Source of the DNA: a virus
IMG/VR virus record: IMGVR_UViG_3300025138_011432
Span: 1-30,807 of that record
Direction: 5' to 3' (one strand)
DNA length: 30,807 nt
The notes below the pieces were generated by a model. The model had not been told where the DNA came from. It did no database searches and saw only the letters and a program-made list of their open reading frames with translations. Position numbers and translations under genes: made by a program. Shown in pieces: positions 2,380 through 25,833 of the stretch (position 1 is its first letter; every line of letters starts with the position of its first letter).

Positions 2380-3200
2380 ATCATTCCATATTGATTAAAT
2401 TCGGGCATTGAGCCCCATTTTTTAAGCCATTTTTGAGCATTATCCCTTTCAGCTTTAATTTGTCTTTTAGATGATTTATTATCATTTTCTTCTAACCTAT
2501 GGCTTCCTCTAGCACCAAAATGGTAAACTAGTGATTTTGTAGTTAAAATAAACCCAAATCCACTTTGTAGCATTCTTAAAAATAAATCCATATCATCCCA
2601 ACTTGCGGGTGCAAATAAAGAATCATTACCTCCTATTTCATCCCAATCTTTTTTTCTAATTAATCCCGATACTCCTTCACCTTTAGGTATTTCAAAATCA
2701 TTTGTATCAGTAAATTCTTTAGCCCATAAATCAAATATTTGATCTTTAAAATCATTATGATAAGCACCAAACGTTTCCTTAGGTATTATTACTGTTCCTG
2801 GTCTTTGATCTGGGTTGTTAAACATATTAGGTTCAACTCTGTGAGAATTAACCCACAATTTTTGGTTTGGGTATTTTTCAAATACATCCATTAATTTAAT
2901 ATCCCAATCTTTAGTAACATAAAAATCAGAATGTAAAAACATTATAAATTCAGTTTTAACTTTATCAGCACAAAAATTCATACCACCACCAATACCTAAA
3001 GGTATTTCATTTTTATCTAAATAAACATCTAGTTGATATTTTTCTTTATTTTCTATTAACCACTTATCCGTTCCATCATTACAATTTTCGGCATGAATTA
3101 TAAATGGAGCGTCTTTATAATGACTATTTTTCCTAACAGAATCAATAGCTATTTTTAGATACGGTAAATTATTAAAAGTGCTTATACAAAATGTTATCAT
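2361..3200 (-). CDS. GT2-family glycosyltransferase
   Basis: A 279-aa GT-A glycosyltransferase. Visible features are the N-terminal strand MITFCISTFNN, an AENCNDGT donor-loop segment near 37-44, and HSDFY near 90-94 as the DxD-like metal site. An acidic SWDDMDLFLRM follows, then YHFGARGSHR near the end. These last two blocks match the protein at 539-1579, so the pair probably arose by duplication while this copy lacks the long tail. Size is typical for a stand-alone GT2 domain. No membrane segment is apparent. Substrate cannot be read from sequence. Confidence 0.85.
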   Translation of the reverse strand: MITFCISTFNNLPYLKIAIDSVRKNSHYKDAPFIIHAENCNDGTDKWLIENKEKYQLDVYLDKNEIPLGIGGGMNFCADKVKTEFIMFLHSDFYVTKDWDIKLMDVFEKYPNQKLWVNSHRVEPNMFNNPDQRPGTVIIPKETFGAYHNDFKDQIFDLWAKEFTDTNDFEIPKGEGVSGLIRKKDWDEIGGNDSLFAPASWDDMDLFLRMLQSGFGFILTTKSLVYHFGARGSHRLEENDNKSSKRQIKAERDNAQKWLKKWGSMPEFNQYGMICGLKK

Positions 3201-3202
3201 AT

Positions 3203-3985
3203 TTAATATTTAATAGGTAAATCACAATTAGACTGCATAACAACACCCATATATTGTGGTTTTAAATGTTCTTCTGTCCATCCTAATTGTTTATAAAAAC
3301 TATATTGTGCTTCATAATGAAAACATTTAAATAAAGGATCACAAGGCATAAATTTATCTCCCTTAGCTAAAGTAGCTTCACCATACCAATTTAATTCATT
3401 TGGTCTATCTGCAAATGCTTTTATTATCCCAATTTTCTTATCTAACCATTCCCAAACTTCGGTATTCCAAATAAATGGATTAGGACCATAATGATATATT
3501 TTACCTTCCCTATTAAATACTCCTTTAATAAAATTATAATCTTCCTCATGTGACTCTCTAGGATTAAAAGGAAAACACTCTTTATGGTATCTATCAGTCC
3601 ATTCTAACATATCTCCATGTTGTGTCATAACCATATAAGGTATATCTTCTTTATATAAAAAATCTTTAACATAAAAATCTTTAAAGAAATAACAATCACT
3701 ATCTAAACTCACATAGTATTTACTAATCTTTAATTTATAAAAGAATGCTTTTATATATTGTTGGTAATGCCACCCACTAGGTATTTTATGTTTAAATACG
3801 CTTTCATCTTCTATTATTTGGGTATAAAATGGTAATTTATCTTTAAATAAATCTACATCTTTAGATGGAACCGAAATATAAAAAGGTATATTATCTTTAT
3901 TATATTTTTTAATACTGTTAGATAATTCTATAACCCTGTTAAGGTCTTTATCGTAACTTTTGCAATATAAGATTATATTTTCCAT
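3203..3985 (-). CDS. DUF6492-type glycosyltransferase-like protein
   Basis: A 260-aa protein resembling DUF6492, a GT-A-like family. The run YYVSLDSDCYF (about 90-100) supplies a DxD-like metal site, preceded by GWHYQQYIKAFF as in this family. I chose the ATG at 3983-3985, which overlaps the stop of the upstream epimerase gene (TAATG), rather than an in-frame TTG 15 nt earlier. The overlap fits the coupled starts seen throughout the window. Likely role: transfer of one sugar in the same glycan pathway. Family call is from pattern memory only. Confidence 0.75.
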   Translation of the reverse strand: MENIILYCKSYDKDLNRVIELSNSIKKYNKDNIPFYISVPSKDVDLFKDKLPFYTQIIEDESVFKHKIPSGWHYQQYIKAFFYKLKISKYYVSLDSDCYFFKDFYVKDFLYKEDIPYMVMTQHGDMLEWTDRYHKECFPFNPRESHEEDYNFIKGVFNREGKIYHYGPNPFIWNTEVWEWLDKKIGIIKAFADRPNELNWYGEATLAKGDKFMPCDPLFKCFHYEAQYSFYKQLGWTEEHLKPQYMGVVMQSNCDLPIKY

Positions 3986-5010
3986 TATTTTGTTTTCCAA
4001 AAACTATAAATACCTTTATCTAATTCATACTTTTCCCATACGAATCTTTCCTTCATTGGTTGTTTTTTAGCCCAATTCCACATTTGTGTTAAACCTTCCT
4101 TCATTGAAGTTTTATGTTTAAAACCTAATAAATCAATTGATTTTTGGTATGTTGGTATTGAATGTTTTACTTCATGTCTAGCTTCTAGATATAAAATTGG
4201 TATTTCAAAATCAACCTTACCTTCTGTTTCTTGTAATACTTCAACCAAGGTTTCAGCAGCTTGACTTATTGATACTTCCTCAACACCTCCCAAATTAATA
4301 ATTTCTTTACTTGCTTTAGGACTTACAGCTGCATTCCATAGGGGTTCTAATGAATCATCAATAAAACTAAATGCTCTGGTTTGTTCGCCATCCCCAAATA
4401 CTGTTAGTGGTTGTTCTGTTAAATACTGATACATCCAGATACCTAATACATTTCTGTATTTATCCCAAATATTTTGTTTAATACCATATACATTGTGTGG
4501 TCTAATGATACACCAATCTAAATCATGTTGTTTACCTGCTATTTGAATATCCATTTCACAGGCATACTTTGCTACTCCATAGGGATCAATTGGTGCTTGT
4601 TGTTGTTTTTCATCAAATATTCCACCACTTCCATGACCATATACAGCTAATGTAGACGTAAATACCAATCTTTTAACATCATGTTTTATACATTCATTGA
4701 CTATGAGGGCTGTTGACTTTAAATTGTTATCATAGTTGTATCCACGTATAAAAGGCGATAATCCTTCAGCGGCATAAGCTGCAAAATGAAATACATAATC
4801 TGGTTTGTGTGTTTCGAAACAATTTTCAATTGGATGTTCCGTTAAATTCATTTGCCAAAAATTAACTTTTGGGTTAATATTTTCTTTATAACCACCACTT
4901 AAATCATCAATACCAATAACTTTACACCCTGGTTTGTTTTCTATTATCCAATCAGCTAACCTACTACCTAGTAATCCAGCTACACCTGTTATTAATACTG
5001 TTTTATTCAT
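3985..5010 (-). CDS. NAD-dependent sugar epimerase/dehydratase (extended SDR)
   Basis: A 341-aa short-chain dehydrogenase of the extended type that acts on nucleotide sugars. TGVAGLLGSRL near residues 8-18 is the Rossmann GxxGxxG, DDLSGGYKEN follows, and TSTLAVYG leads to the catalytic YGVAK (Tyr-x3-Lys) near 144-148. The C-terminal half carries the substrate region. It is close to UDP-glucose 4-epimerase or UDP-glucuronate epimerase types, but the exact reaction cannot be decided. It would supply an activated sugar to the surrounding transferases. A promoter-like element lies 75 nt upstream, inside the preceding gene. Confidence 0.88.
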   Translation of the reverse strand: MNKTVLITGVAGLLGSRLADWIIENKPGCKVIGIDDLSGGYKENINPKVNFWQMNLTEHPIENCFETHKPDYVFHFAAYAAEGLSPFIRGYNYDNNLKSTALIVNECIKHDVKRLVFTSTLAVYGHGSGGIFDEKQQQAPIDPYGVAKYACEMDIQIAGKQHDLDWCIIRPHNVYGIKQNIWDKYRNVLGIWMYQYLTEQPLTVFGDGEQTRAFSFIDDSLEPLWNAAVSPKASKEIINLGGVEEVSISQAAETLVEVLQETEGKVDFEIPILYLEARHEVKHSIPTYQKSIDLLGFKHKTSMKEGLTQMWNWAKKQPMKERFVWEKYELDKGIYSFWKTK

Positions 5011-5953
5011 TTATTCTATTTATTAAGTCTTGGGCTACAGCCTTAGTTGTTAAATTTTCTTTAAAATATTTAAACATTTCGTCCAATATACGAAAATATT
5101 CTTGCTCATCAAAGTTATCTTTTAATTTATTTCCTTCAATAATTAATTCTTTTGGAAAATTCCATAAAGTATTCTTGGGGCAAAATTTTATATCAGGAAA
5201 ATAAGGTAAACAATAATTACCCATTATTTCATAATGTCTCATACAATCCCACCCTGCTTTTTTTTCTGTGAGACCGAAATTTGATTTATTATAATCATCA
5301 TAATACGATCCTTCATCTCTAAATATATAAGTACTTTTATCTCCGGGTATTACAGTTCCTATATGTTGAGTTTTTGATTTATTTATTTTAGATAAATGCA
5401 CTTCAGGATAACTAAATGTGATAGGTTTTATATTAGAGGGTAAATTAGTAAAATCTGGTAATTCTCTTTTAAAATATAAATAACCTTCATTAACTACTTC
5501 TGAAAGTTGATCATCATCATTTCCATCTAATAATGCTATTTTTTCCTTAGGGTAAATCTTACTTACTATATTAAATAAATGAGTACAACGTCTAAAATTA
5601 CCATAAATAATTAAATCAAATTCTTGGTTTTCTATTTTATTCCTCATTTCATCAAAATACTTTTGGGCTTCCCCTCTATCACTAAAAACTCTTTCATCAT
5701 AATCTTTATTTAAAAGATAAAAAGAAGTCATTCCTCCCCAAAAATGTCCTTCCATGTTACCACTATTAAATAAATGATCAACAGCTCCATTTTTATTTTC
5801 TTTATATAAATGAACGGGTGGTATAAAAGCTGTTACATCTTTACCATATAATTCTTTTAACCCATGAAAGGTTAAATCATTTAAATAATCACTTATAAAA
5901 CCCCCACTTTCAAGAGCAATTTGTTCAAAATCTGTTATGTATAATATTTTCAC
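5003..5953 (-). CDS. Putative GT-B-like glycosyltransferase
   Basis: A 316-aa protein with N-terminal MKILYITDFEQ and several Rossmann-like strands (DLIIYGNFRRC, IALLDGNDDD). The C-terminal segment WDCMRHYEIMGNYCLPYF resembles the donor-binding part of CgeB-like and related GT-B transferases. Nothing in it is decisive. It overlaps the methyltransferase gene (4 nt) upstream and the epimerase gene (8 nt) downstream. A promoter-like element is embedded in its 3' part (FRIL codons at 5085-5113). The likely job is another transfer step in the island. Confidence 0.6.
   Translation of the reverse strand: MKILYITDFEQIALESGGFISDYLNDLTFHGLKELYGKDVTAFIPPVHLYKENKNGAVDHLFNSGNMEGHFWGGMTSFYLLNKDYDERVFSDRGEAQKYFDEMRNKIENQEFDLIIYGNFRRCTHLFNIVSKIYPKEKIALLDGNDDDQLSEVVNEGYLYFKRELPDFTNLPSNIKPITFSYPEVHLSKINKSKTQHIGTVIPGDKSTYIFRDEGSYYDDYNKSNFGLTEKKAGWDCMRHYEIMGNYCLPYFPDIKFCPKNTLWNFPKELIIEGNKLKDNFDEQEYFRILDEMFKYFKENLTTKAVAQDLINRINE
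5085..5113 (-). promoter_or_regulatory. Phage promoter P3 (intragenic)
   Basis: TTTG (5110-5113) is followed after 19 nt by TATATT (5085-5090) with TTCG directly before it. It is inside the C-terminal coding region of the GT-B-like gene and 75 nt upstream of the epimerase start at 5010. It would give the lower half of the island its own transcript. Confidence 0.65.
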
Positions 5954-6558
5954 TTAAATATATTTTTAAATTCTTCTACTGATATTAAGTTTAGTAATTC
6001 TTTCCTATTTTTATCTAAATATTCATAATCTAAATTTAAATCTACGGGAATTTGAGTTTTATCTTCGTTATTAATTATTACACCACAACCACAATCAGTA
6101 TCAACTACATAACAATCAAATGCAGGGTGTATTTGTTTAAATTCAACATATGCTTTCCAAACATCACCATGCCAGGTAACACATTGTCTGGGAACTAGTT
6201 GTGATTCATAAGTTAAAGGATTACAATCATGCATCATTATAATACCATTAGGTTGAAGATGTTTTAAACTGTTTTCTATATCTTTTTTTACTTGGCCATA
6301 ATGATGTAATCCATCTATAAAAATAAGATCATATTTAATATCATGACCTTTAATAAACTCAAAAAATTCATCTGATGTTACAGGATAATTTACTTTTGGG
6401 TGAACAATACCTTCATGACCTGGGTCTACACCATCTTTATGTTCTGCCTTTACATTACTTATACATTCCCCAGTAAATACTCCTATTTCTAGATAATTAA
6501 CAACATTATAAGTGTCAACTAGATGATTTAATAATTCATATCTTTGTATTTCTCTCAT
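5950..6558 (-). CDS. Class I SAM-dependent methyltransferase (Methyltransf_24-like)
   Basis: A 202-aa Rossmann methyltransferase. NYLEIGVFTGECIS (21-34) is the SAM-binding motif I, YDLIFIDGLHHYG (75-87) the acidic motif of Methyltransf_24 proteins, and MMHDCNP (108-114) the following strand. Relatives of this type are common in phage and bacterial glycan clusters and often methylate sugars. It overlaps the GT2 gene downstream in the window (start 6558) by 4 nt and the GT-B-like gene by 4 nt. A sugar O-methyltransferase is more likely than a DNA methyltransferase because no target-recognition domain or DPPY/NPPY motif is present. Confidence 0.8.
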   Translation of the reverse strand: MREIQRYELLNHLVDTYNVVNYLEIGVFTGECISNVKAEHKDGVDPGHEGIVHPKVNYPVTSDEFFEFIKGHDIKYDLIFIDGLHHYGQVKKDIENSLKHLQPNGIIMMHDCNPLTYESQLVPRQCVTWHGDVWKAYVEFKQIHPAFDCYVVDTDCGCGVIINNEDKTQIPVDLNLDYEYLDKNRKELLNLISVEEFKNIFK

Positions 6559-7178
6559 AAAGTATTATAATATGCGTTTTGTTTTTCTTGTCTATCTATA
6601 TTTTTAGGATGGTATAATGCTAATCCTTCCATATCAGGAAGTGGAGAGTAAGTTTTATGACCCTCTAATACTTCGTGTACTTTATTTACCCACTTAATTT
6701 TTGAATTATTTTTCCAAATACGCCATTGATAATCAGGCCAGTTAACCCAACCTTTGGAATTCACTACCCATCCCCATTTCTGAATATGTTCTTCAGTTAA
6801 TCCCTTTACAGTATTAACTCTAGGGACTAAATATACTTCATTATCGGGGTTGCTTGATATTATTGCTGGTAGATTTGTAATTAAACTTTCATGTGGGTAT
6901 TCATCGGCATCAATTTGAAATATGTAATCACCAGAACACATCTCTGTTAATTTATTTTTCCAATCAGCAAAATGATTTTTAAATGTTGCAGACTTTATAA
7001 CACAATTAGGTTCATCATTTAATTCTTGTAAACAAGACCATACTTCAGGTGTACCTCCTTTTTTATCAAATAAAACAACAATTTCATCATTTTTTCTTTT
7101 AAATTGAAAAAGATAGTTTAATAACTTAGTTATTTCATTTAATTCATTACATACTGTGATTGCATAACTTATTTTCAT
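6555..7178 (-). CDS. Short GT2-family glycosyltransferase
   Basis: A 207-aa GT2 protein that starts MKISYAITVCNE, carries EIVVLFDKKGG (32-42) and the metal site FQIDADEYP (87-95, DxD at 90-92). A downstream YQWRIWKNN...VHEVLEGH block is typical of GT2 enzymes related to LPS core transferases. It is shorter than usual (about 250 aa or more) but has a normal stop. A promoter-like element lies just upstream (7199-7228), inside the preceding gene. Likely transfers a hexose or heptose in the island's glycan. Confidence 0.82.
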   Translation of the reverse strand: MKISYAITVCNELNEITKLLNYLFQFKRKNDEIVVLFDKKGGTPEVWSCLQELNDEPNCVIKSATFKNHFADWKNKLTEMCSGDYIFQIDADEYPHESLITNLPAIISSNPDNEVYLVPRVNTVKGLTEEHIQKWGWVVNSKGWVNWPDYQWRIWKNNSKIKWVNKVHEVLEGHKTYSPLPDMEGLALYHPKNIDRQEKQNAYYNTL

Positions 7179-7180
7179 AT

Positions 7181-7627
7181 CTATTCTGGTAGTACCCCAA
7201 TATACGAAAGTGCTTCCATAAAATCACGTTCTCCAAATGTTTCCATTGTAGACATATCAGGTTTGTGGGTTAATTTATTATCAACTTCTTTTAATTCATC
7301 TTCAGTTAAAGGCCTTGCTTTTACTGCTGCCCACTTCCATGTTGATTTATCTTGACCATTAGCAAAAACCATTCCTAATTTTTCTTCATTTATGGTAGTA
7401 GGTAACCAAATAAGTCCTGTTTTGACATCTACCCAAGATAAATCTTTATATAATTCAGGTAAAACTTCTATTTGTTCTTCAAAAAAATCAGATCCTGGGG
7501 TCATTAATGTATTAGTCCAAAAACCACATGATAAACTAAAATAACTAGTTATATCTTTAGTAACTTCTAGTTTATAACATAAATCTCCTCCACTTTTAGG
7601 GCAATTTATAATTTCATCGTAATCCAT
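7181..7627 (-). CDS. Hypothetical 148-aa protein
   Basis: A soluble protein, MDYDEIINCPKSGGDLCYKL..., rich in acidic and aromatic residues. The CPKSGGDLCY part could look like a metal-binding knuckle, but only two cysteines are close together. No catalytic motif is recognised. It sits between GT2 and GT4 genes with only 2-3 nt gaps, so it belongs to the same transcription unit. Its last 10 codons overlap promoter P4 (ALSYIGVLPE). Function unknown; an accessory protein of the glycan pathway is a guess from location only. Confidence 0.7.
   Translation of the reverse strand: MDYDEIINCPKSGGDLCYKLEVTKDITSYFSLSCGFWTNTLMTPGSDFFEEQIEVLPELYKDLSWVDVKTGLIWLPTTINEEKLGMVFANGQDKSTWKWAAVKARPLTEDELKEVDNKLTHKPDMSTMETFGERDFMEALSYIGVLPE
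7199..7228 (-). promoter_or_regulatory. Phage promoter P4 (intragenic)
   Basis: CGTG (7225-7228), 20 nt, then TATATT (7199-7204) with TTCG before it. The element ends 20 nt before the ATG of the GT2 gene at 7178, an ideal distance for a short leader. It is encoded by LSYI codons of the 148-aa gene and uses the Ser codon TCG. Confidence 0.65.
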
Positions 7628-7629
7628 AT

Positions 7630-8940
7630 TTATACTTTTTTAAGTTGTGGTATTTTTAATTCAGGTAATTTTAATTTCACTTGTTGTGAAAAATCAGGTA
7701 AAACATTAGTTAAATGGCTATCAATTAATTCACTCATTTTATCTCTACTAAAATTTGTTTTTGCAAAATAGGCTTGTCTTTTACCTTTACTTAATTTTAA
7801 TTTATAATCTTTGTAAATACTTCTTAAAGATTCTCTAGCATAAACAGCATCAACTTGAAACCATTGGGCTTCTTGTTGTAACCAATCATTAGCAGCACTA
7901 GGATGGATATTTTCTAATTGGCCTTGTACTAAGGTTGTAAATTCAGGATTTAAAAAATCTAAATGACCTGACCAACCAGATGCTATAATAGGTTTTCCAG
8001 TTAAACTAAATTCTAATAATGGTCTACCATATCCTTCACCTTTAGTAAAACTTACCATTGCTTTTACTTTAGGATGATTATATAAATCATTCATTTCTAA
8101 ATCACTAAATTCACCATGTAGTAAATATATGTTTGGTATTTTATGACCTTTATATTCTCTAATGTATCCTTGTATTTGTTCTAAAACTGCTTCTTTACTT
8201 GTGTAAGAATTATTACCCTTACTACATTTTAATATTAGAGCAGGCATTGCGCTTCTATTTCTAAAAGTATCAATAAATTCTTTTATTAATACTCCTACAT
8301 TTTTTCTATCATGACCATGTATTCCTTGCATCCAATGTCCTACAAATAAGTAACAAAACTGTTCTTTTATACCTGATAAATCAATACCTTCAGATTTAGG
8401 TTTAGATATTTTTTTATATAAATCAGTATTTACTCCTTCAAATATAACATTAATTGGTTTTTCTACTTTTAACTCTCCTATTGGTTGTTGAGTATTTTTA
8501 TCTCTTTTTTCAAATTTAACACCTTCAAACATATTTTTTGCAAATTGAGATGATACCCAAGTTTCATCCATTCTATTTATACCTTCAACCCATTCACCCT
8601 TACATGATGTTGCCTCAATACCAGCAGTACATCCAATATTATATCTTCCTACAGGTTTAAATTCATTTGGGATTGTAATTTGCATCCAAATCTCTGGTTG
8701 TTTAGTTGCTTGTTTCATAGGGTCATGCTTATAATCTAATAAAAATTCCCATTCAGGATGATCTTTACAAAAACCCCAAGGAGTTTCACCCCATCTTTGT
8801 GCTACTAGTATAACTTCATATTTACCTGAATCTATTATTGATTTAGCAACATCTCTACTTCTTGCCCCATAACCACTATAAGTATCAAAGGGGCAACTAA
8901 TTACAAATTGAGGTTTCATTTCTGTTTTTATTTTTTTCAT
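7630..8940 (-). CDS. GT4-type (GT-B) glycosyltransferase
   Basis: A 436-aa GT-B glycosyltransferase. The N-terminal half opens with SCPFDTYSGYGARSRD (15-30), as in transferases that act with a glycine-rich acceptor loop. The C-terminal half shows CYLFVGHWMQG (196-206), LKCSKGNN, and the donor-site E302-GYGRPLLE-310 (E-x7-E motif of GT4/Glycos_transf_1), followed by KPIIASGWSGHLDFL. Retaining transfer of a nucleotide-activated sugar is expected. The start overlaps the stop of the upstream GT4 gene by 1 nt. No membrane anchor is seen. Acceptor unknown. Confidence 0.85.
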   Translation of the reverse strand: MKKIKTEMKPQFVISCPFDTYSGYGARSRDVAKSIIDSGKYEVILVAQRWGETPWGFCKDHPEWEFLLDYKHDPMKQATKQPEIWMQITIPNEFKPVGRYNIGCTAGIEATSCKGEWVEGINRMDETWVSSQFAKNMFEGVKFEKRDKNTQQPIGELKVEKPINVIFEGVNTDLYKKISKPKSEGIDLSGIKEQFCYLFVGHWMQGIHGHDRKNVGVLIKEFIDTFRNRSAMPALILKCSKGNNSYTSKEAVLEQIQGYIREYKGHKIPNIYLLHGEFSDLEMNDLYNHPKVKAMVSFTKGEGYGRPLLEFSLTGKPIIASGWSGHLDFLNPEFTTLVQGQLENIHPSAANDWLQQEAQWFQVDAVYARESLRSIYKDYKLKLSKGKRQAYFAKTNFSRDKMSELIDSHLTNVLPDFSQQVKLKLPELKIPQLKKV

Positions 8941-10388
8941 TAGTATATAATTTTATGATTTAAAAAATTTGGTTTTTGGATAGTAGCATTAATAACTTCA
9001 TACTTTTCTCTTGGTTTCCAAGTATCAAATAATTCATTAAATGCTTCCATAACTCTATTACCCTGATGTTCAGCTGTAAATCCAGCTTCATCACTAATAG
9101 CCCATTCTCTACCTTTTAAACCTCTACTTTTTCTTTCTTCAGGATCCATATTATAAATTTCTTCAATTCTTTCAGCTACATCCTCAAAGCAACATCTATC
9201 ATCATAAATGTAAGGTGTTGGAGGTGAACCTTGAATTGATCTTGAAGTTGGATACACAGGGAATGCCCACTCACCATGTTCTTTATAAGTACCTCTATGA
9301 TTAGAAGGAACGTCAGCACTAGGTGTAAACCATTTTCCATTTTCATCAATAAATCTCATTTGATCTTGCATCCCACCTGTTGTGTTAGCAATAATTGGAG
9401 TTCCTGATAATATAGCTTCAGTAAGGGTTAATCCCCAACCTTCATTTGATGTAATTAATATTTGAGCGTCAGCTATATTATATAAATAATTTAATTGTAC
9501 CGGTGTTAATTTATTATGAGAAAAAATAATATTTTCTGAGTATTTTTCACCAAATAAAAAGTCATTTACTTTATATAAATCAGTTCCAGCATCAGTTGAT
9601 CTTTCAGTATGTAAAATCATTTTACAATTTAAAGCATCTTCATAAGGAAGTGAATCTAAAAACATTCTAAAAGCCATCAAACTATCAGGTATTTGTTTTC
9701 TTCTAATATTTCTAGAATTAAAAAATAATGTAAATTTTGGGGCTTGACCCTTAAATATTGCCTCTTTAAATTGTAAGAAATTTTTCTCTAGTAATTCTTC
9801 TTGAGACATAGGATGGTAAATATCATGATTTAAACCATGTGGGATATATTTAAATATTCTTCGTTTATCATTATCAGCTAATACTAATTTATTAATATTT
9901 ACTGTTTGTTTTGAAATACCCATTAGTAAATCACAAGCTTCATAGTATGGTTTATTATACATTGGAACTGGATAATCATCCCATATATTTAAATATGTTA
10001 TAGGGCAAGTTTTTCTAATTTCACTTTCCATATCCCAAATATACCTAAAATATCTTGGATCAGTAATTAACATAATAGCATCTGGTTTTTCAATTTCTAA
10101 TACTTTACGTAATACTTGAGGATCACCATAAGCATTTACTGGGTATAAAAATACACTAGAATCTTCAATTTTTGCATTAAGATTAACATCCTTAGATATA
10201 TCTAAATGTTTTCCTACTTCTGGGTGTGTTATTGCTCCTGCCATTTGTACCCAATTAAAATGATGTGCTGATTTTATAACTACTTCTTTAGCTACTGTAG
10301 CTACCCCAGAGTGTACTCTAATATCATCGCAGATCAATAGTATTTTCTTCCTTTTATCTATAGGAAGATGCTTAAAACTTTTATTCAT
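8940..10388 (-). CDS. GT4-type (GT-B) glycosyltransferase
   Basis: A 482-aa GT-B protein and the first sugar gene in transcription order. KILLICDDIRVHSGVATVAKE (15-35) is the acceptor-side start. FFNSRNIRRKQIPDSLMAF (222-240) and S314-NEGWGLTLTEAILSG-329 with GTPIIANTTGG are the donor-binding blocks of Glycos_transf_1. Similar large GT4 proteins occur in T4-like marine phages. It is separated by only 13 nt from the ribbon-helix-helix-like gene upstream, so the island may be transcribed from that gene's promoter. No copy of the repeated promoter element is seen directly upstream. Confidence 0.85.
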   Translation of the reverse strand: MNKSFKHLPIDKRKKILLICDDIRVHSGVATVAKEVVIKSAHHFNWVQMAGAITHPEVGKHLDISKDVNLNAKIEDSSVFLYPVNAYGDPQVLRKVLEIEKPDAIMLITDPRYFRYIWDMESEIRKTCPITYLNIWDDYPVPMYNKPYYEACDLLMGISKQTVNINKLVLADNDKRRIFKYIPHGLNHDIYHPMSQEELLEKNFLQFKEAIFKGQAPKFTLFFNSRNIRRKQIPDSLMAFRMFLDSLPYEDALNCKMILHTERSTDAGTDLYKVNDFLFGEKYSENIIFSHNKLTPVQLNYLYNIADAQILITSNEGWGLTLTEAILSGTPIIANTTGGMQDQMRFIDENGKWFTPSADVPSNHRGTYKEHGEWAFPVYPTSRSIQGSPPTPYIYDDRCCFEDVAERIEEIYNMDPEERKSRGLKGREWAISDEAGFTAEHQGNRVMEAFNELFDTWKPREKYEVINATIQKPNFLNHKIIY

Positions 10389-12647: not shown

Positions 12648-12899
12648 TTATAGTGTTTCGTCTTTTAATTCTTCTCTTAATTCTTTTGGTAATCCTTCTT
12701 TTAAAATTTTACCGGTAGATGGGTCATAAAATACTGGAAGAGGCATTATAGCATCTTCATCTGTACCTGCTACGAATTTAGAAATTTTTCTTAAAATAAC
12801 CCCAGATACAAAAATATTTTTTCCTTCTGAGTTGAGAATTGCAGAAGTTGTTTTTAAATCTACATTCATTTGTGGTGGTTGTTGTTGTTGTTTTGACAT
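12648..12899 (-). CDS. Hypothetical 83-aa protein between clamp-loader genes
   Basis: The protein starts MSKQQQQPPQMNVDLKTTSA, with a Gln/Pro-rich tip encoded by repeated CAA. A compact region follows (SGVILRKISKF...LPVFYDPSTGKILKE), then an acidic end. No family is recognised. It overlaps the gp44-like gene by 1 nt and abuts the gp62-like gene, so all three should be made together. T4 has gp regA between 62 and 43 rather than a gene here; this protein does not look like RegA. Confidence 0.7.
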   Translation of the reverse strand: MSKQQQQPPQMNVDLKTTSAILNSEGKNIFVSGVILRKISKFVAGTDEDAIMPLPVFYDPSTGKILKEGLPKELREELKDETL

Positions 12900-13816
12900 T
12901 ACTTATTTATTATTAAATTATTAATTAAACTCATTATATTGATTTCTTTATCTATTCTAAAATTGGCCTTATATTGATGGTCATTAATAAGAGCAGTTGC
13001 TGTACCTTCTTTATTAGGTAGAAATTTAGCAGCATTTTCATATAAAAACCTAAACAATTCATCAAAATCATCAACATTAGCATCTGCTATTGTTTGTCTA
13101 ATTTTAGTAAATGAAGGTTTGTTTTCTGATAGTTCTGATAATATTTTATCCATATAATTGGATGATACTAAAATTGATTTATCTAATTTTAGTTGATTAT
13201 CTTGTGTAGATAATTGTATTGTGTTAAGCATCTTACGTATGTCAGGATAGTTGTTATTAACTACCATTGCTAAATCATTAATTTTTGATACTTTAATGCC
13301 TTCTTTATCAGTAATTTTATTTAAATGTTTAACAATATCTAATTTACTAGGAGGTACAATTTTTAATGTTTGACACCTAGATTGTAAAGGGTCAATTATT
13401 CTTTCTATAAAATTACAAGTTAAAATAAATCTTGTAGTTCTTGAAAATGTTTCAATTATATTTCTAAGTGAGGCTTGCGCTTGAATTGTAAGAAAATCTG
13501 CCTCATCTAATATAATAACTTTAAGAGGCTTGAATGAAGCAACTGATGCAAACCCAGAAACTTTATCTCTAATAGTTTCAATTCCACGTTCATCAGAAGC
13601 ATTAATATAAATATAATCACAATCTATATTTTTAATAATTAACTTTGCCAGTGTTGTTTTACCAGTTCCAGCTGGTCCATAAAATATTAAATTCTGGATA
13701 TCATTTTGACCAATGTAATTTGATATTGATTTTTTGATACTTTCATTTCCTACATAATTATTTAAATTTGTAGGACGATATTTTTCTACTAATAAACTAT
13801 TCTCCGTATTCACCAT
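12899..13816 (-). CDS. 44: Clamp loader AAA+ ATPase subunit, gp44-like
   Basis: A 305-aa AAA+ clamp-loader ATPase (T4 gp44 is 319 aa). Walker A is GPAGTGKTT (47-55), Walker B is IILDEAD (101-107), and the SRC arginine-finger motif is at 146-148 (LQSRCQ). The N-terminus has EKYRPTNLNNYVG, typical of RFC/gp44 proteins. It uses ATP to open and load the gp45-like clamp encoded at 17.2-17.9 kb. It overlaps the 89-aa gene upstream by 20 nt and depends on promoter P6. Confidence 0.93.
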   Translation of the reverse strand: MVNTENSLLVEKYRPTNLNNYVGNESIKKSISNYIGQNDIQNLIFYGPAGTGKTTLAKLIIKNIDCDYIYINASDERGIETIRDKVSGFASVASFKPLKVIILDEADFLTIQAQASLRNIIETFSRTTRFILTCNFIERIIDPLQSRCQTLKIVPPSKLDIVKHLNKITDKEGIKVSKINDLAMVVNNNYPDIRKMLNTIQLSTQDNQLKLDKSILVSSNYMDKILSELSENKPSFTKIRQTIADANVDDFDELFRFLYENAAKFLPNKEGTATALINDHQYKANFRIDKEINIMSLINNLIINK

Positions 13817-14312: not shown

Positions 14313-15944
14313 TTACATCATTCCCATCATTGATGGGTCCATTGCTGGTTGTTGGTTATTTTTATTTTCTTCTAAATCATTTACTACAGTACATTCTGTT
14401 AATAAAACAGTACCTGCTACTGAAGCAGCATTTTCAAGTGCTAATCTAGTTACTTTAGTAGGATCAATAATACCTGATTCTTTATAATCAATTACTTCTC
14501 CTTTATTAACATCTATTCCTGACCAATGATTATTACCTGAATCTACTAATTTATACCTTCCAAATAATCCAGCATCAACTTTAGTATATCCAGCATTAAG
14601 TAAAATTTGTTCAAATGGTTTACCACATGCTTCATATACAATTTTTGCACCTTCATTATCAGTTTTTATACTTTCTCGGGCATAAAGTAAAGCAACACCA
14701 CCTCCTGGTAGAATTCCTTCTTCAATAGCAGCTTTTGTAGCATGTAATGCATCATCTACTCTATCTTTCTTTTCTTTTAATTCGATTTCAGTATTACCAC
14801 CAACATGAATAATAGCTACACCACCAACAAACTTTGCTAATCTATTTTGTAATTGCTCAGTTTCATATGGAGTTTGTGCATTATCAACTTGACTTTGTAG
14901 GTTTTCTACTCTTTTAGTAATATCATCTTCTGATCCTTTACCATCAACTATAGTTGTTGTTTCTTTTGTAATAGTTGCTGTACGAGCTTCACCAAACCAA
15001 TCCCAAGAAAATTTATCTAATTTCATACCTTTTTGTTTGTCAAATACTTGACCACCAGTCATAATAGCAATATCTTCTAGTATTAATTTTCTTTTATCAC
15101 CAAATTCAGGTGCTTTAACAGCACATACATTAACAGTACCTCTCATTTTATTTACTATTAAAGTAGCTAAAGCTTCATTATCAATATCCTCTGCAATTAT
15201 TAATAGTGATTTTCCTTCACTAGATACTGCTTCTAATATTGGTAATAATTCTTTTACAGAATTTAATTTTTGATCTGCAATTAATACTACAGGATTTTCT
15301 AATACTGATGACATTGTATTATTATCAGTAACAAAATATGGAGATTTAAATCCTCTATCGAATTGCATACCTTCAACAGTTTCAAGATAAGTATCTCCGG
15401 TTTTTGATTCTTCAATATGAACAACACCTTCCATACCAACTTTTTCAAGTGCCGTTGCTATTAAAGTACCTACTTCTACATCATTATTAGCTGATATAGT
15501 TGCAATTTGTTCTAATTGACCTTCAGCTGATATGTCTTCAGATATGTCTTTTCTTAAAGTTTTTATTACTTCTTTAACTGCTTTATCAATATTACGTTTA
15601 ATTTGTACAGCATTTTCATTTTTAGATAGATTATCTAATCCTAGATTAATCATTTCTCTAGCTAACAATGTTGATGTAGTTGTACCATCTCCAGCTTTAT
15701 CTGCTGTTTGTACTGCTGCTTGTTTTACTAATTGAACCCCTAATTCTTCAGTTGGGTTTTTTAATGAGATGGATCTTGCTACTGTAACACCATCTTTTGT
15801 ACTAGAAGGTATACCATCATCTCCTGCAATTACAACATTTCTTCCATTTGGACCTAAAGTTGAAACAACAGCATCTGCTAATATATTAATCCCTTTTACA
15901 AGATCATTTCTAGATTCATCGCTAAATTGTATTTTTTTACTCAT
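14313..15944 (-). CDS. groEL: Chaperonin GroEL
   Basis: A full-length 543-aa group I chaperonin (E. coli 548 aa). It has GPNGRNVVI (31-39), the ATP-site D86-GTTTSTLLARE, AEDIDNEALATLIVNK in the apical domain, and the GGGVALLYARE region. It ends in a Met-rich tail (AMDPSMMGMM). All core segments are present, so it should form an active ring. It follows groES by 4 nt. Phage GroEL is known from a minority of phages, including uncultured marine ones. It would fold capsid or replication proteins, perhaps independent of host GroEL. Confidence 0.97.
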   Translation of the reverse strand: MSKKIQFSDESRNDLVKGINILADAVVSTLGPNGRNVVIAGDDGIPSSTKDGVTVARSISLKNPTEELGVQLVKQAAVQTADKAGDGTTTSTLLAREMINLGLDNLSKNENAVQIKRNIDKAVKEVIKTLRKDISEDISAEGQLEQIATISANNDVEVGTLIATALEKVGMEGVVHIEESKTGDTYLETVEGMQFDRGFKSPYFVTDNNTMSSVLENPVVLIADQKLNSVKELLPILEAVSSEGKSLLIIAEDIDNEALATLIVNKMRGTVNVCAVKAPEFGDKRKLILEDIAIMTGGQVFDKQKGMKLDKFSWDWFGEARTATITKETTTIVDGKGSEDDITKRVENLQSQVDNAQTPYETEQLQNRLAKFVGGVAIIHVGGNTEIELKEKKDRVDDALHATKAAIEEGILPGGGVALLYARESIKTDNEGAKIVYEACGKPFEQILLNAGYTKVDAGLFGRYKLVDSGNNHWSGIDVNKGEVIDYKESGIIDPTKVTRLALENAASVAGTVLLTECTVVNDLEENKNNQQPAMDPSMMGMM

Positions 15945-17219: not shown

Positions 17220-17951
17220 TTACTGTTCATTTCTTACTAAAAAATATTCACTTGTTATGCCTAATCCTTCAGAAATAAACTTTAAATTTATATAACCATC
17301 TTGTGTTAATTTTAATACTCCTCCATCCATATCTTTATTAGAATATAATATATCTCTAAATATATTTGAATTAAAGGGCATTGATATATTATCTTCAAAA
17401 TTACCTAATGTTTGGTAAGTAATTTTATTAGCATAGTTAGCATTATCTCCAAATAAGAATTCACACATTTTTACTCCATCAATACTTTCAGCTGTTTTAA
17501 TTAACATATAATCTACTTCAGATAATGCATTTTTAGCTTTTATTAAAGAATCAATATCATTTATAGATAAATCCGTTTCAAGGTTATAACCATTTTCAGG
17601 TTCTTCTAACCATGTATTACTACCAATTACTAATATATCAGCTAATGAATAAGATAAATCAAAATTTGAATCTGATATGTTAATTTTAGTATATATTTTA
17701 TGGGATTTTTCAGGTTGGATTAATAAATCCCCATTAGTAATAGATATTAATTTATTTAATTTATCAGTATCAAAAATTCCTAATTCACAATCCTCAAATG
17801 GAAAATTATTTAGATGTACTTTACATATTTTACCTTTTGAACCAGCATAAATTGTTAAATTATTATCTTTAATCCTCCACTTAACAGTATTATTTAATCC
17901 TTTTAGGTGGTACTTGTTAATAACAGATTGTATTACATTTTTATTTATCAT
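17220..17951 (-). CDS. 45: Sliding clamp, gp45-like
   Basis: A 243-aa DNA polymerase processivity clamp (T4 gp45 is 228 aa). It has the two-domain beta-rich pattern with few motifs: NNTVKWRIKDNNLTIYAGS near the N-terminus, and DYMLIKTAESIDGVKMCEF and LKLTQDGYINLKFIS in the second half. Identification rests on length, pattern and position next to the polymerase. As a trimer it would encircle DNA, and in T4 it also activates late transcription. The ATG is 7 nt after the TATATT box of promoter P8, so a leaderless mRNA is likely. Confidence 0.82.
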   Translation of the reverse strand: MINKNVIQSVINKYHLKGLNNTVKWRIKDNNLTIYAGSKGKICKVHLNNFPFEDCELGIFDTDKLNKLISITNGDLLIQPEKSHKIYTKINISDSNFDLSYSLADILVIGSNTWLEEPENGYNLETDLSINDIDSLIKAKNALSEVDYMLIKTAESIDGVKMCEFLFGDNANYANKITYQTLGNFEDNISMPFNSNIFRDILYSNKDMDGGVLKLTQDGYINLKFISEGLGITSEYFLVRNEQ

Positions 17952-17958
17952 AGGTTAT

Positions 17959-17987
17959 AATATACGAAAATTATTTTATACTTCAAA
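17959..17987 (-). promoter_or_regulatory. Phage promoter P8 for the sliding clamp
   Basis: TTTG (17984-17987), 19 nt, TATATT (17959-17964), with TTCG before the hexamer. The -33 box is in the last codons of the downstream-half polymerase gene. The clamp ATG follows after 7 nt. Confidence 0.75.
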
Positions 17988-18956
17988 GGAATTTAATGAG
18001 TTTACATAAGGGTTTAATGATAAATCCCATTCTAAATCATTAAAAAACCCTTCTAATTTATTCAATAAAATTGAATCAAATACTTTTTGTCTATCAGCAT
18101 AATTATCTAAAAATTGTTTTATTTTTTCAGGCATATCATGGTCAAAAAAAGCTAATGCTTCTATTTTATAGGGATTATCTTTTAAATAAATCCATTTTAC
18201 TTTATCAGCTTGTGTCATTAAGTTATGTTTTTTATCTAATTGCCATAAACATAATAAATCATTATATCTAATAGCTGCTCTAACAGGTGCGGGTGCCCCT
18301 AAGTTTCTTTGTGTTTTACCTTCTTTTTTCTGACTAAGTGGTTTAAGTATTATTGAAAACATTTCTCCTGCAGCTCTACGTCCTCTATATTTATTTAATT
18401 TTTTAATCATTGTTGGATTTCCTAACTGTGTTAAAGAAATACTACCATCTAATATTTTTTGTTTAAATACTTTAATTTGTTTAGTAATACTTTCTTCCTT
18501 AATTCCTTTTAATGTTTGTTGTAAAATATCATTAAAAAATTTACCTAAAATGGGAGGAAAATTAGCTTTCATAAACTCTAAACCCTTAATATCTAAAGTC
18601 TCCTTAGATATACCTTCTGTTTTTGTTATCCACTGGGCATAACGTCTTGTTGCTCTAAAATAAGCTGCACGAATAACACATTCAGTTTTCATTTTTAACC
18701 TATTTTTTCCAATAATTCCAAAACTTTCAGTAACTAATCTTTTATAATCTTCATTAATAACATCTTCGGTTATCTCAGCTAATTTTTCAGTAATGTCGTC
18801 TTTTTCAACATCATTAAATTTATTATTAAAGTCTGGGTATAAATGTTTTAGTACAGGGCCTCCATGAAAATAATTTGAATCTGTGTCAACATAAGCACAT
18901 AAATTCTGATCATCTTTGTTACAAATCCACCACGGAGTATCTTCTAAGTGTCTCAT
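17976..18956 (-). CDS. 43: DNA polymerase family B, C-terminal half (motif C, thumb)
   Basis: A 326-aa protein equal to the last third of T4 gp43. It opens MRHLEDTPWW and carries the catalytic motif C, Y22-VDTDS-27, with both metal-binding Asp residues. RRYAQWI further on corresponds to the KKRYA template-binding block, and a thumb region follows. It cannot polymerise alone because motifs A and B are in the separate gene at 19533-21296. The combined length, 587+326=913 aa, equals an intact T4-type enzyme (898 aa). Its ATG overlaps the stop of the DUF6165 gene (TAATG), so it is translationally coupled. Confidence 0.92.
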   Translation of the reverse strand: MRHLEDTPWWICNKDDQNLCAYVDTDSNYFHGGPVLKHLYPDFNNKFNDVEKDDITEKLAEITEDVINEDYKRLVTESFGIIGKNRLKMKTECVIRAAYFRATRRYAQWITKTEGISKETLDIKGLEFMKANFPPILGKFFNDILQQTLKGIKEESITKQIKVFKQKILDGSISLTQLGNPTMIKKLNKYRGRRAAGEMFSIILKPLSQKKEGKTQRNLGAPAPVRAAIRYNDLLCLWQLDKKHNLMTQADKVKWIYLKDNPYKIEALAFFDHDMPEKIKQFLDNYADRQKVFDSILLNKLEGFFNDLEWDLSLNPYVNSLNSFEV

Positions 18957-19339
18957 TAATATTTTTCGTAAGATTTTTCTTCAACTAAACCGGATTCCGT
19001 TAAAATGTTTATTTCTTTTTTAATATCACATCTTTTATCATTAGTAATATACACAGATCTTGCTAATTCTACAAATGTATTATCAAACTGTGCATTTTTT
19101 TCACATTCCCTTATATCATCTTCAATAGTCCATAATTGACCATTAATTTTAGATAAATGTAAATATAATTCTTGAATTTCTGGTCCATATTTGTCGAATA
19201 AATCGTGTACAAATGGATTTAGTTCATTAAATTCATTATTAATATTGACTAATTTATCTTTGTCTGTTATATTCAACATTTTTAATTCTAGAATTGATAT
19301 TTTATCTAGTAATTCCCCGTTTGATATTTCTATTTTCAT
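18956..19339 (-). CDS. DUF6165-like protein inserted between polymerase halves
   Basis: A 127-aa helical protein. ISNGELLDKISILELKM, QLWTIEDDIREC, FVELARSVYITNDKRCDIKKEIN and the final EEKSYEKY match the DUF6165 pattern, a family usually found next to glycosyltransferases in polysaccharide loci. No nuclease motif (LAGLIDADG, GIY-YIG, HNH) is present. It overlaps the neighbours upstream (ATGA, 4 nt) and downstream (1 nt). Why such a gene lies inside a polymerase locus is not clear; it may be a passenger, or a structural partner of the split enzyme. Confidence 0.8.
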   Translation of the reverse strand: MKIEISNGELLDKISILELKMLNITDKDKLVNINNEFNELNPFVHDLFDKYGPEIQELYLHLSKINGQLWTIEDDIRECEKNAQFDNTFVELARSVYITNDKRCDIKKEINILTESGLVEEKSYEKY

Positions 19340-19536
19340 TTGTTTGTTAGTGTTATTTGAAAAGTTATTTTATTAATTGTAAATCTAAATACTCCTTGTT
19401 TTAAGCATTTTCTAAACATATTTTCTTGTGATTCAGTCCAAGATTCACTCATTTTAATTAATTCATCTTTTTTAATGAGTTTTCCATTAGCTTTAATAGA
19501 CATATTTTGTCTAATTGATTGTTTTTTTAATGTCAT
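19336..19536 (-). CDS. Hypothetical 66-aa basic protein between polymerase halves
   Basis: MTLKKQSIRQNMSIKANGK... is strongly basic, with SESWTESQENMFRKCLKQGVFRF in the middle and a beta-like C-terminus (FTINKITFQITLTNK). No family is recognised. It overlaps the stop of the polymerase N-terminal gene by 4 nt (ATGA) and the DUF6165 gene by 4 nt, so it must be translated with them. The high Lys content would allow nucleic-acid binding, but nothing more specific is visible. Confidence 0.65.
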   Translation of the reverse strand: MTLKKQSIRQNMSIKANGKLIKKDELIKMSESWTESQENMFRKCLKQGVFRFTINKITFQITLTNK

Positions 19537-21296
19537 ATTTCTAATTTTATTTCGTCTCTTAATACTTTATTTAAAAAGGTATTAGCACATAATGCACTTT
19601 CTTGTATAATTCTCTGTCCTGTTAGTGTAATAGCCTGACTAATTAAAAAATCAGGTAATCCATATCTAAATGTGGGTAAAGCAGTAGCCCCATATAATGA
19701 ATTAAGTAAAATTTTCATTGTATACTGCATTAAATAATAATATTCACCTTCTTCTTTATTACCCTTTTTATAAGCATCCTTCATTTTATTTTTATATATA
19801 ACTCTTTCATCAAACCAAGTATTTAATATAGTTGATAAAACTGATTCTTTATCCTGTTTAAAAAATGCCCCATTAGCTGATACAGATAATTCATTATCTT
19901 TTATATATTTAATTAATTTAGGGGGTTTAATAAAAGTTTGTTGACCTTTAACATTTCTGATTTCAATTTGCCTATCAGGATCCATTTCTTTTAAATCGTT
20001 AATAGCCAATCTACTATTACGTTTATCTGCGTCTTTGATATAGCCGACCAAAGTTTCTCTACCTATGTTAAGTGACATAATTATACATGGATACAGCGAA
20101 ACTAAATCCAAATCAAACATATGATCATATAATCCAGCTTTAGGGCAAAATAAATAACCACCAGCATATGTTTCTTTTTTACCTAATGGTTGTTTACCTT
20201 GATATGGTCTAGCAGGTGGTATAATATTTTGGGATAATAAATAAGCAGATATAGCCCCATCTTGAGTTACACTATTTGAATATACTTCACTATAATTATG
20301 TTTACCTTTATGTGCTAAATTTTTTGTTAATGCTATATAATCTAATTTTTCATCTAATAATTTAAGTATTTCAACATCACGAAAGTTATATTCAATAAAT
20401 TTATGTAAATCAGTTTCAAATAATTGATCTAAATTACCTTCATATTCAATTTTTTTAACACCCGCATATTTTTCTCCAATTGCGTCTAATTTATAACTTG
20501 GTTCATCTTTCCAACTATATTTTTTATGTAGGCGGATATAATCTAAGGATTCAATACCCACAATATCTACAAATTGATCTCTTTTAGTCCAACTAGAAAC
20601 CCATTTACCTGTTTCTCTATGTTTCCACCAAGATGCTTTTTCAGTTTTAATTGTCCCTATAGGAGACAACATTTGAGCATAATCTTTACCTAAAACATTA
20701 CATATTCTATAATATAAATAAGGAATATCAAAATAATCTGAATTATAACCAATTAAAATATCTGGGTAGTTGTCTACATGGTAATTTAAGAATTCAGCTA
20801 GTAATTCTTTTTCACTTCTACAAGGTATTATTTTTTTATTTCTTTGTTTATCCCAAGTAGTACTTTTTATTAAATTTTTCTTATCTAAAATTAGAATAAT
20901 CCAATCTTTTTTATCCCACCATGCAATAGAAGTAATGGGCATAGGTGCACTTTCAATATATTCTTTAGTTAAAGCACCACCAATCTCACACTCAATATCA
21001 AAATACACTTCTCTGTGACCTGTAGAGGGGGTATCATTAGTTCCATATTTTTCAATCAAAAATTTTTGGTGGGGTTTCATATCATGGTAGTGCAAACCAT
21101 AATCTTTTTTATTATAATTAGATGTTTTTCGTAACTTTTCACCTTCTAAACCAGTAAATTCTCCATTAGGGTCTTCAATATATGAAGTATTTAACCATTC
21201 AATTTCATCATAGCCACCTTCATCCCATAAATTAATTTTGTAGAGATTACTATCATATTTACCTAATCTTGTTGCATAACATTTAATATAACTCAT
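19533..21296 (-). CDS. 43: DNA polymerase family B, N-terminal half (exonuclease, motifs A and B)
   Basis: A 587-aa protein with the 3'-5' exonuclease and the first part of the palm and fingers. Exo I is YFD100-IE, Exo II GYNSDYFD (183-190), Exo III Y303-NFRD-307. Motif A is D397-LVSLYP and motif B K528-ILLNSLYG-536. It stops about 50 residues after motif B (RDEIKLEI), before motif C. The frame ends cleanly in TGA overlapped by the next ATG, so it is not a sequencing frameshift between adjacent frames. The missing part is the gene at 17976-18956. It should act as a two-chain holoenzyme. Confidence 0.95.
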   Translation of the reverse strand: MSYIKCYATRLGKYDSNLYKINLWDEGGYDEIEWLNTSYIEDPNGEFTGLEGEKLRKTSNYNKKDYGLHYHDMKPHQKFLIEKYGTNDTPSTGHREVYFDIECEIGGALTKEYIESAPMPITSIAWWDKKDWIILILDKKNLIKSTTWDKQRNKKIIPCRSEKELLAEFLNYHVDNYPDILIGYNSDYFDIPYLYYRICNVLGKDYAQMLSPIGTIKTEKASWWKHRETGKWVSSWTKRDQFVDIVGIESLDYIRLHKKYSWKDEPSYKLDAIGEKYAGVKKIEYEGNLDQLFETDLHKFIEYNFRDVEILKLLDEKLDYIALTKNLAHKGKHNYSEVYSNSVTQDGAISAYLLSQNIIPPARPYQGKQPLGKKETYAGGYLFCPKAGLYDHMFDLDLVSLYPCIIMSLNIGRETLVGYIKDADKRNSRLAINDLKEMDPDRQIEIRNVKGQQTFIKPPKLIKYIKDNELSVSANGAFFKQDKESVLSTILNTWFDERVIYKNKMKDAYKKGNKEEGEYYYLMQYTMKILLNSLYGATALPTFRYGLPDFLISQAITLTGQRIIQESALCANTFLNKVLRDEIKLEI

Positions 21297-21860
21297 TTAT
21301 ATAATAGTTTCAACTTTATAAAACTTAGCTAACTCTTCAGTTTCAAAAAATTGAGATAAATCTGGTCTGAAATAATTAATGGATTTCATTACTTTTCTAT
21401 CTCGAGTCCTGTAGACAATATACCTTCCCTCCTCAATTTTTTCAAAATGACAGGCCTCACCTTGTTCCTTACTTCTTTGGCTGATGGTCTGTATGGCTTC
21501 TTCTTCAGTTTTACAAGCTTTTGACATATTACTTGCTTGTACCTCTGAATAGGCAGGCCATATCTTGCTTTTAAGGCCATGTAACATAGTACCGTTCCCA
21601 AGGGAAACATAAGTAATATCGCACAAAGCGTCCAAAACTTCCACAATGTCGCCTCGTTCGCAAGCTTCTTTATATTCTTCAAGTTCTTCGAGGATAAAAT
21701 CATAGACGAATTGCCATTCTTTTTTTTCTGGAATGGTAGGTTCATAATTATTTGGTTTATTAAATGTTTTATTAAAAATTTCAACTTCATCAACAAATGG
21801 AACACGACCATTAGCTTCTGGGTCAAATATTTGAAAATCTAATTTTAATTGTTTGCTCAT
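21297..21860 (-). CDS. MazG/PRA-PH-like NTP pyrophosphohydrolase
   Basis: A 187-aa all-alpha NTP pyrophosphatase. The metal-binding pattern is ILEELEEYKEA (EExxE, near 52-62) followed by EVLDALCDITYV (ExxxxxxD). This family hydrolyses nucleoside triphosphates or phosphoribosyl-ATP to monophosphates. It directly precedes the polymerase gene, so it may clean or adjust the dNTP pool. Bases about 21390-21730 are clearly richer in G+C (CTC, GCG, CGA codons) than all neighbours, which suggests recent transfer from another genome. Substrate undetermined. Confidence 0.82.
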   Translation of the reverse strand: MSKQLKLDFQIFDPEANGRVPFVDEVEIFNKTFNKPNNYEPTIPEKKEWQFVYDFILEELEEYKEACERGDIVEVLDALCDITYVSLGNGTMLHGLKSKIWPAYSEVQASNMSKACKTEEEAIQTISQRSKEQGEACHFEKIEEGRYIVYRTRDRKVMKSINYFRPDLSQFFETEELAKFYKVETII

Positions 21861-24972: not shown

Positions 24973-25833
24973 TTATTTTTCCCATTTTTCTAATAAGGTT
25001 ATTACATTGTTTTTTGCTACATCCCAAGTAACTGGGCCAGTTTCATCTGCATAATTTATAGGATCAGGTCTTCCTAATTTTATAAATGCTTCAATACGTT
25101 CTACTGATGAAGCTGATTTATAATCTGAATACCATTCCCAAGCATTTGTTTCTGGTCTACTATAATGTTTAATTGGCTTGTAGGATGTATGTGTTCTTTT
25201 ATATACTTCATTAAAATCTATATTTAATTTAGTAACTAATTTTTCACCATCTTGTAAAATACCAAATTTATCAGTATTTAAATAGGGGGTAAAATATCCT
25301 ACTCTTTCATGATCCCAATTTCCTTCTCTAAATGCTTTATCATCTGCATCTCTAAATTCTTGTCTACAATCAGGATAAACAGCATGGTCACCTGCATGGA
25401 TACCTAAAGCAATATTACAAGTTTCTCCTGTTTTATTTGCTATAGATAAAGCTACTGCTTGTGTAATAGAAGCAAATATTTTATTTCTATTAGGTACAAC
25501 TGTTTCTTTCATATTATCTTGTTCATAATGTCCTTCAGGTACATCTTCTCCACCTTCAACTAAAGCTGAATCTAATAAACCTACTAACCCATCTAATTTA
25601 ATTTGTTTATAATTTATAAAATGTGGGTATTCTGCTGTTTTTGAATTTTCATCTACACTAAATTGACTATTTAAGTAATCAACTAAAGATTGAGCTTTTT
25701 TTAATTCTACTTTGTGTTTTTGACCATAGTCAAATGATATTGCTGTTACAGTATCATATTCATTGATAGCTCTTAACAAGAGGGTGCTACTATCCATTCC
25801 ACCACTTAACGAAACTACTATGTGTTTTGCCAT
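24973..25833 (-). CDS. queC: QueC-like 7-cyano-7-deazaguanine synthase without zinc cysteines
   Basis: A 286-aa ATP-dependent PP-loop enzyme (usual QueC 220-240 aa). S10-GGMDSS-16 is the PP-loop; VVPNRNKIF (112-120), ALGIHAGDH and YPDCRQEF (153-160) match QueC. QueC normally turns carboxydeazaguanine into preQ0 through an amide, and binds zinc with four Cys near its end. Here the matching stretch is THTSYK (214-219) and KSASSVERIEAF (239-250): all zinc cysteines are replaced, while VERIEAF and DP remain. About 20 residues are inserted between these blocks. The product may therefore differ. Promoter P10 is upstream. Confidence 0.88.
   Translation of the reverse strand: MAKHIVVSLSGGMDSSTLLLRAINEYDTVTAISFDYGQKHKVELKKAQSLVDYLNSQFSVDENSKTAEYPHFINYKQIKLDGLVGLLDSALVEGGEDVPEGHYEQDNMKETVVPNRNKIFASITQAVALSIANKTGETCNIALGIHAGDHAVYPDCRQEFRDADDKAFREGNWDHERVGYFTPYLNTDKFGILQDGEKLVTKLNIDFNEVYKRTHTSYKPIKHYSRPETNAWEWYSDYKSASSVERIEAFIKLGRPDPINYADETGPVTWDVAKNNVITLLEKWEK

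Follow-up and report, generated by a model that had tools for sequence, protein, structure and literature searches.

A family B DNA polymerase split between motifs B and C around a cargo slot in uncultured marine phages

Organization of the split polymerase locus

The window, a 30,807-nucleotide stretch of viral DNA (IMG/VR record IMGVR_UViG_3300025138_011432), carries four adjoining minus-strand genes whose order, read from the list of open reading frames and their translations, is N-half, P66, DUF6165 and C-half. The N-half of PolB (19533..21296, 587 aa) contains the exonuclease domain and motifs A and B, as identified from its open reading frame, Pfam (DNA_pol_B_exo1, 2.8e-16; DNA_pol_B, 2.6e-23), PHROG and an alignment with RB69 gp43; the C-half (17976..18956, 326 aa), an open reading frame likewise recognized by Pfam and PHROG, contributes motif C and the thumb. 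Between them lie the gene of a 66-aa protein, P66 (19336..19536), and that of a 127-aa protein (18956..19339), which Pfam assigns to DUF6165 (7.7e-14, 52 bits against a cut-off of 27). Successive genes of the four overlap by 4, 4 and 1 nt. The conserved upstream neighbour of the cluster is a MazG-like pyrophosphohydrolase gene (21297..21860, minus strand), identified by Pfam, PHROG and the loci of relatives, and on the other side follows a probable gp45-like sliding clamp (17220..17951, minus strand), assigned from a weak match to phrog_223 (0.028) and from synteny with the clamp of intact relatives; a gp44-like clamp loader is encoded at 12899..13816 on the same strand (phrog_168, 3.8e-75).

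Together the two halves amount to 913 aa. Along the 856 positions of phrog_262, the N-half covers 38-568 and the C-half 565-844 (2.2e-36), so that the pair accounts for one polymerase without a gap. The exonuclease domain and motifs A, B and C found across both halves, with motif B (KILLNSLYGA) in the first and YVDTDS in the second, identify a family B enzyme of the T4/phrog_262 type. The N-half matches RB69 gp43 up to residue 610, which places the break ahead of the motif C strand, in the loop that connects it to the helix following motif B. Purifying selection acts throughout, with median dN/dS values of 0.17 (N-half), 0.12 (P66), 0.15 (DUF6165), 0.12 (C-half) and 0.12 (clamp). The preliminary description of the locus, namely a 913-aa polymerase divided between motifs B and C by genes for a 66-aa protein and a 127-aa DUF6165-like protein, with overlaps of 1-4 nt at every junction, is borne out by these assignments.

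Conservation of the split and an intact sister clade

Relatives of the C-half were confirmed for 248 IMG/VR records, and for 415 when a more distant member of the clade served as the query; after removal of copies, 125 distinct contig sequences had a readable junction. Searching relatives for the same arrangement was a check suggested at the outset, and its result was uniform: the junction is split in all 125, with none fused or intact within the split group. Because all of these distinct relatives agree, the split is not an assembly error; it is real and exceeds what chance or misassembly would yield. Misassembly, an intron or a split intein has next to no probability as its cause. Elsewhere, phage PolB genes do contain inteins or introns, as in the large phage L158 described below, in Aeromonas phage 25 and in Pseudomonas phage MIJ3 (PMC6892783); here, however, the N-half ends and the C-half starts at conserved places without intein-like pieces, Pfam gave no Hint or intein domain match on the window's split-polymerase halves, and Rfam gave no match within the window, including any group I or II intron at the junction. 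Conserved half ends, the Rfam result and the concordance of the contigs speak against all three readings for the window. At two loci (L098 and L113) the C-half, and in L113 also the N-half, matched piecewise, reflecting frameshift or sequencing error.

In a tree obtained by a quick search, in which long branches separate the groups, the split clade (53 entries) is monophyletic with a support of 100, and its sister is a clade of 6 intact polymerases (joint support 100); both are separate from the Mel-JY01-like clade discussed below. Intact relatives encode the polymerase as one gene of 862-909 aa that is followed by the clamp and, in L516, preceded by MazG; several continue, like the window, with Hsp20-like and GroES/GroEL-like genes. 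Sequence reading also revealed GIY-YIG-like genes in intact relatives, close to either the polymerase or the clamp loader (L515, 2247-3023; L439, 5449-6192). Refusion of the halves was found in none of the split-clade members examined, and, given the well-supported intact sister, a single fission that was never reversed accounts for the data: the break arose one time only, in an intact polymerase gene carried by the ancestor of a large group of uncultured marine phages.

A conserved head on the C-terminal half

In the intact sisters a conserved ES segment and DTDS lie about 21 residues apart, whereas in the split enzymes the corresponding stretch mostly consists of 18 residues ending the N-half and 23 opening the C-half, about 20 extra. 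In 123 of 124 members the head of the C-half (18876..18956 in the window, minus strand) runs from the initial Met through motif C over 27 residues; P8, C12 and N18 are invariant, and W9 is present in 122 of 123. Its motif, MKHLExTPWWICD, occurs in essentially every split member and is absent from intact sisters, a distribution that makes this N-terminal stretch a candidate helper for joining the halves, that is, a candidate latch.

Cargo genes between the polymerase halves

The near clade was sampled as 78 distinct loci with a complete interval between the halves; P66 is in the slot at every one of them, and DUF6165 at 59, being missing from 19. Across all 125 relatives, P66 occupies the slot in 101 and is missing from 24, of which 7 hold other genes and 17 have an empty slot, where the halves abut, mostly overlapping by 4 nt. 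Slot size varies from empty to 4.3 kb and content from none to about six unrelated genes, which include those for a mannose-6-phosphate isomerase-type cupin, a cytidylyltransferase, an Smr domain, a PLP-dependent enzyme, an NAD epimerase, DUF2452 and a 2OG-oxygenase-like protein, as well as, by sequence reading, DegT-like, acetyltransferase-like, methyltransferase-like and sulfotransferase-like products. The gap has become a place where unrelated genes settle as cargo, many of them belonging to sugar modification.

Particularly long cargo was seen in L061, L069, L073 (about 4.2 kb), L074, L081 (3.0 kb) and L157 (2.7 kb), where sequence reading points to DegT-like aminotransferase, glycosyltransferase-like and formyltransferase-like genes; in the window itself, glycosyltransferase-like genes follow one another near one end (539-10388), in agreement with sugar cargo.

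DUF6165, an optional occupant of the slot, is probably a sugar-related cargo gene as well. In the L131/L160 group it is located between the C-half and the clamp instead, and it is also found at loci that have no polymerase close by; its structure model is a four-helix bundle (pLDDT 91) for which a fold search gave no significant match. Two earlier proposals hold up in this light: that the inserted family belongs with glycan loci, since many relatives hold other sugar genes in the slot, and that a relic insertion became fixed, an old fixed insertion site being the best reading.

The further suggestion that the small proteins bridge the halves fared differently. Were P66 and/or DUF6165 structural bridges or obligatory subunits joining the halves, the constancy of P66 in the complete near-clade intervals and its strong purifying selection would be explained; yet the 17 empty slots and the 24 slots lacking P66 argue against this, 11 of the split records lacking slot P66 (fragments of up to 100 kb) gave no P66 elsewhere, P66 lies away from the polymerase in phages whose polymerase is intact, and DUF6165, besides its near-clade absences, turns up at polymerase-free loci. 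Because each protein is dispensable, and because P66 accompanies intact polymerases elsewhere, bridging is unsupported and, in our estimate, highly improbable; P66 and DUF6165 are probably passengers of the slot rather than glue.

Counted against real upstream stops, 105 of the 125 relatives have a C-half whose start shares 1 or 4 nt with the stop of the gene before it, regardless of which gene that is; the second codon of the C-half nearly always begins with A. Such overlaps are commoner here than among neighbouring gene pairs of the window genome (9 of 37, three of them in the polymerase cluster). Coupled translation through these overlaps may help to supply the halves together, although overlaps are frequent genome-wide in the window.

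The P66 family

Two signatures, QSIR and F[KR]KxLKQG, mark the P66 family; both are present in the window protein, a short form without the last ~20 residues of the family. It has no Pfam or PHROG match, and comparisons of the P66 profile or of members with PDB, Pfam and PHROGs gave nothing convincing. An AlphaFold2 model of middling confidence (pLDDT 75, pTM 0.53) had no significant match in Foldseek searches of PDB and BFVD and reached Z 2.1 at best in a second comparison; the fold gave no indication of function. P66 is a previously undescribed family of small phage proteins, probably with a function of its own.

A profile scan recovered 311 stretches encoding P66. Among the best 80 of these loci, 56 have an N-half upstream and a C-half downstream, 5, at contig ends, show one half only, and the other 19 have no polymerase in their vicinity. 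P66 was found apart from polymerase halves in 13 records, 6 of which contain a polymerase: in five of the latter a single open frame of 869-926 codons runs from N to C, and the sixth polymerase, truncated by the contig end, is likewise open across the junction. In other neighbourhoods of related phages (L439, L462, L467, L474, L476, L480, L482, L487 and L492) the family was seen beside QueC-like, ThyA-like or small hypothetical genes, or between GroEL and the clamp loader.

On the tree, slot P66 needs five changes and is present in early branches of the split subgroups, so that early entry followed by several later losses is the simplest history. No other slot gene is as constant as P66, and selection on it matches that on the clamp in strength; it would suit not only a passenger but also, rather than a bridge, an accessory factor or regulator of replication that profits from co-expression with the polymerase. 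Its near-constant place beside the polymerase in the near clade, its clamp-like dN/dS and its position between GroEL and the gp44-like clamp loader in one intact relative all favour such a role, but it lies among unrelated small genes in L467, L482, L487 and L492 and was lost several times within the split clade; we regard an accessory P66 as possible, if somewhat doubtful.

Homing endonucleases and distant polymerase splits

How the polymerase came to be broken may be connected with homing. A homing endonuclease gene could have inserted, broken the polymerase and later been lost, leaving a slot for others to enter; this plausible origin, whose chances we consider evenly balanced, is compatible with a stably split enzyme whose slot carries passengers. 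The original statement that no endonuclease is present is accurate for the window, which holds only P66 and DUF6165 between the halves, but does not extend to all relatives: in L207, L208 and L212 the N-half and P66 are separated by a GIY-YIG gene. A GIY-YIG gene also separates 43A from 43B in Aeromonas phage 25, and in several phages of the distant Mel-JY01-like clade homing-type genes interrupt the polymerase at this very loop (NUMOD3 with GIY-YIG in L416, a zinc-finger type in L277 and L410, a NUMOD3-bearing type in L411). Conversely, the window and almost all of its relatives are without an endonuclease, that of L207 may have arrived later in an existing gap, and no intermediate is known.

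The polymerases of the Mel-JY01-like clade are otherwise intact. PolB is split just before motif C in L277 (5128-6030; the same record as L409, with L412 a near copy), L293 (5700-6040; L408) and, further, L410, L411, L413/L415/L417, L414 and L416 (L386), with a homing-type gene between the halves in sufficiently long records save L293/L408. The C-half starts with a short open reading frame, mostly MKIK..DYNxYxDT, that stops immediately, and the remainder (TDSVF..) lies in another frame, with no upstream start codon in 9 of 10 stretches; a skip of 5 nt between two Thr codons would re-create YxDTDS. An IMG/VR pattern scan for this opening gave PolB in 10 of 10 matches, and all six such records, one of 175 kb, have a single PolB C-part. 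The arrangement resembles the endonuclease-plus-bypass at T4 gene 39/60 (PMC5009743); no clear RNA structure was found.

The N-half ends of L277, L293, L386, L410, L411 and L158 share a C-terminal tail of ~40 residues, YxIxLENGK..NG..KKVSELTENDDVLI, which by eye resembles part of an N-intein (gp41-1 intein, weak match, E 0.7) and is possibly an intein-derived clasp between polymerase halves. L158 (LR756508.1; 3364-6417 and 9423-11288) is a 484-kb uncultured phage whose PolB is split before motif C, with intein-like domains within motifs B and C and about 3 kb of other open reading frames between the halves.

Comparison with known split enzymes

Split phage polymerases are already known in kind. 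The gp43A and gp43B proteins of Aeromonas phage 25 purify together and show activity (PMC2988022), and phages 25 and 44RR resemble the window in dividing a T4-type PolB between two genes with an insert between them. The products of the two genes must assemble there, as the halves of the window enzyme presumably do. The initial comparison with Aeromonas split gene 43 was right as to kind but not as to position: two neighbouring PolB genes are found in both, but 43A of phage 25 (498 aa) ends ahead of KILxNSLYG, before motif B, and the window enzyme breaks between B and C. Moreover, 43B of phage 25 contains a group I intron, and its halves flank a GIY-YIG gene; in the window no endonuclease occupies that position, the cargo is of other kinds, and the split is fixed clade-wide.

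A split PolB3 was reportedly described in Methanobacteriales by Kelman in 1999. Its second polypeptide carries motif C, a lead towards a similar break point. The enzyme consists of two polypeptides (PMC4104785) as here, but is archaeal and was proposed to result from faulty intein excision. In Pseudomonas phage MIJ3, whose PolB occupies two open reading frames, a putative split intein is accompanied by an HNH endonuclease gene (PMC6892783); there is likewise a gene between the frames, whereas no split intein is found here. In the OM43 phages MEP401 and MEP402, PolA is split in two open reading frames around a small one of unknown function (PMC10580990): a marine group in which the split is common, as here, but in a family A rather than a family B polymerase. 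In this comparison, a P66 query against the phage collection gave no match. T4 gene 39/60 topoisomerase and Aeh1 nrdA are other essential enzymes that are permanently split and whose parts assemble in trans (PMC2988022, PMC5009743), in their case with the endonuclease still beside or between the parts.

The literature search found no description of this split clade or of DUF6165; nor did the literature searched hold a B/C break fixed clade-wide, an exchangeable non-endonuclease slot, the new C-half head or the P66 family.

A possible host

C-half relatives occur on contigs binned as Flavobacteriaceae, and part of the MazG gene (21345-21758), which alone gave a match in a DNA search of cultured phages, has 77% DNA identity to Flavobacterium phage immuto. 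Because binning is weak evidence, the host is only suggested: it is perhaps a marine member of the Flavobacteriaceae. Phage immuto has a family A polymerase, so that the MazG likeness reads as gene exchange and a host hint; it also carries GroEL and queuosine-type genes, like the window (GroEL, 14313-15944; QueC-like gene, 24973-25833).

Discussion

The locus is, quite probably, that of a stably split replicative PolB with a cargo slot, in which P66 and DUF6165 are passengers. An intact polymerase gene broke once, in the loop between the helix that follows motif B and the motif C strand, and the gap became a slot that later received P66 and many sugar-modification genes. By analogy with gp43A and gp43B of Aeromonas phage 25, the N-half and C-half would associate in trans as one active polymerase, presumably through the native palm interface together with the new N-terminal element of the C-half.

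A more far-reaching account, which we consider rather unlikely, holds that the constant-length N-terminal stretch of the C-half, MKHLExTPWWICDxxD, is a new latch that evolved with the fission and re-forms the palm in trans, that the slot tunes C-half supply by coupled translation, and that P66 is a replication accessory; if true, the latch would be a purpose-evolved assembly element that arose with the fission.

In summary, a polymerase cut beside a catalytic motif stays in two pieces across an abundant marine phage group, even where the slot is empty. Its intact sister, empty-slot members and cargo-bearing members form a natural comparison for the assembly of a split enzyme and for its lack of rejoining, and the locus provides both a candidate latch sequence and a cargo slot for sugar-modification genes that lies between the halves of an essential enzyme.
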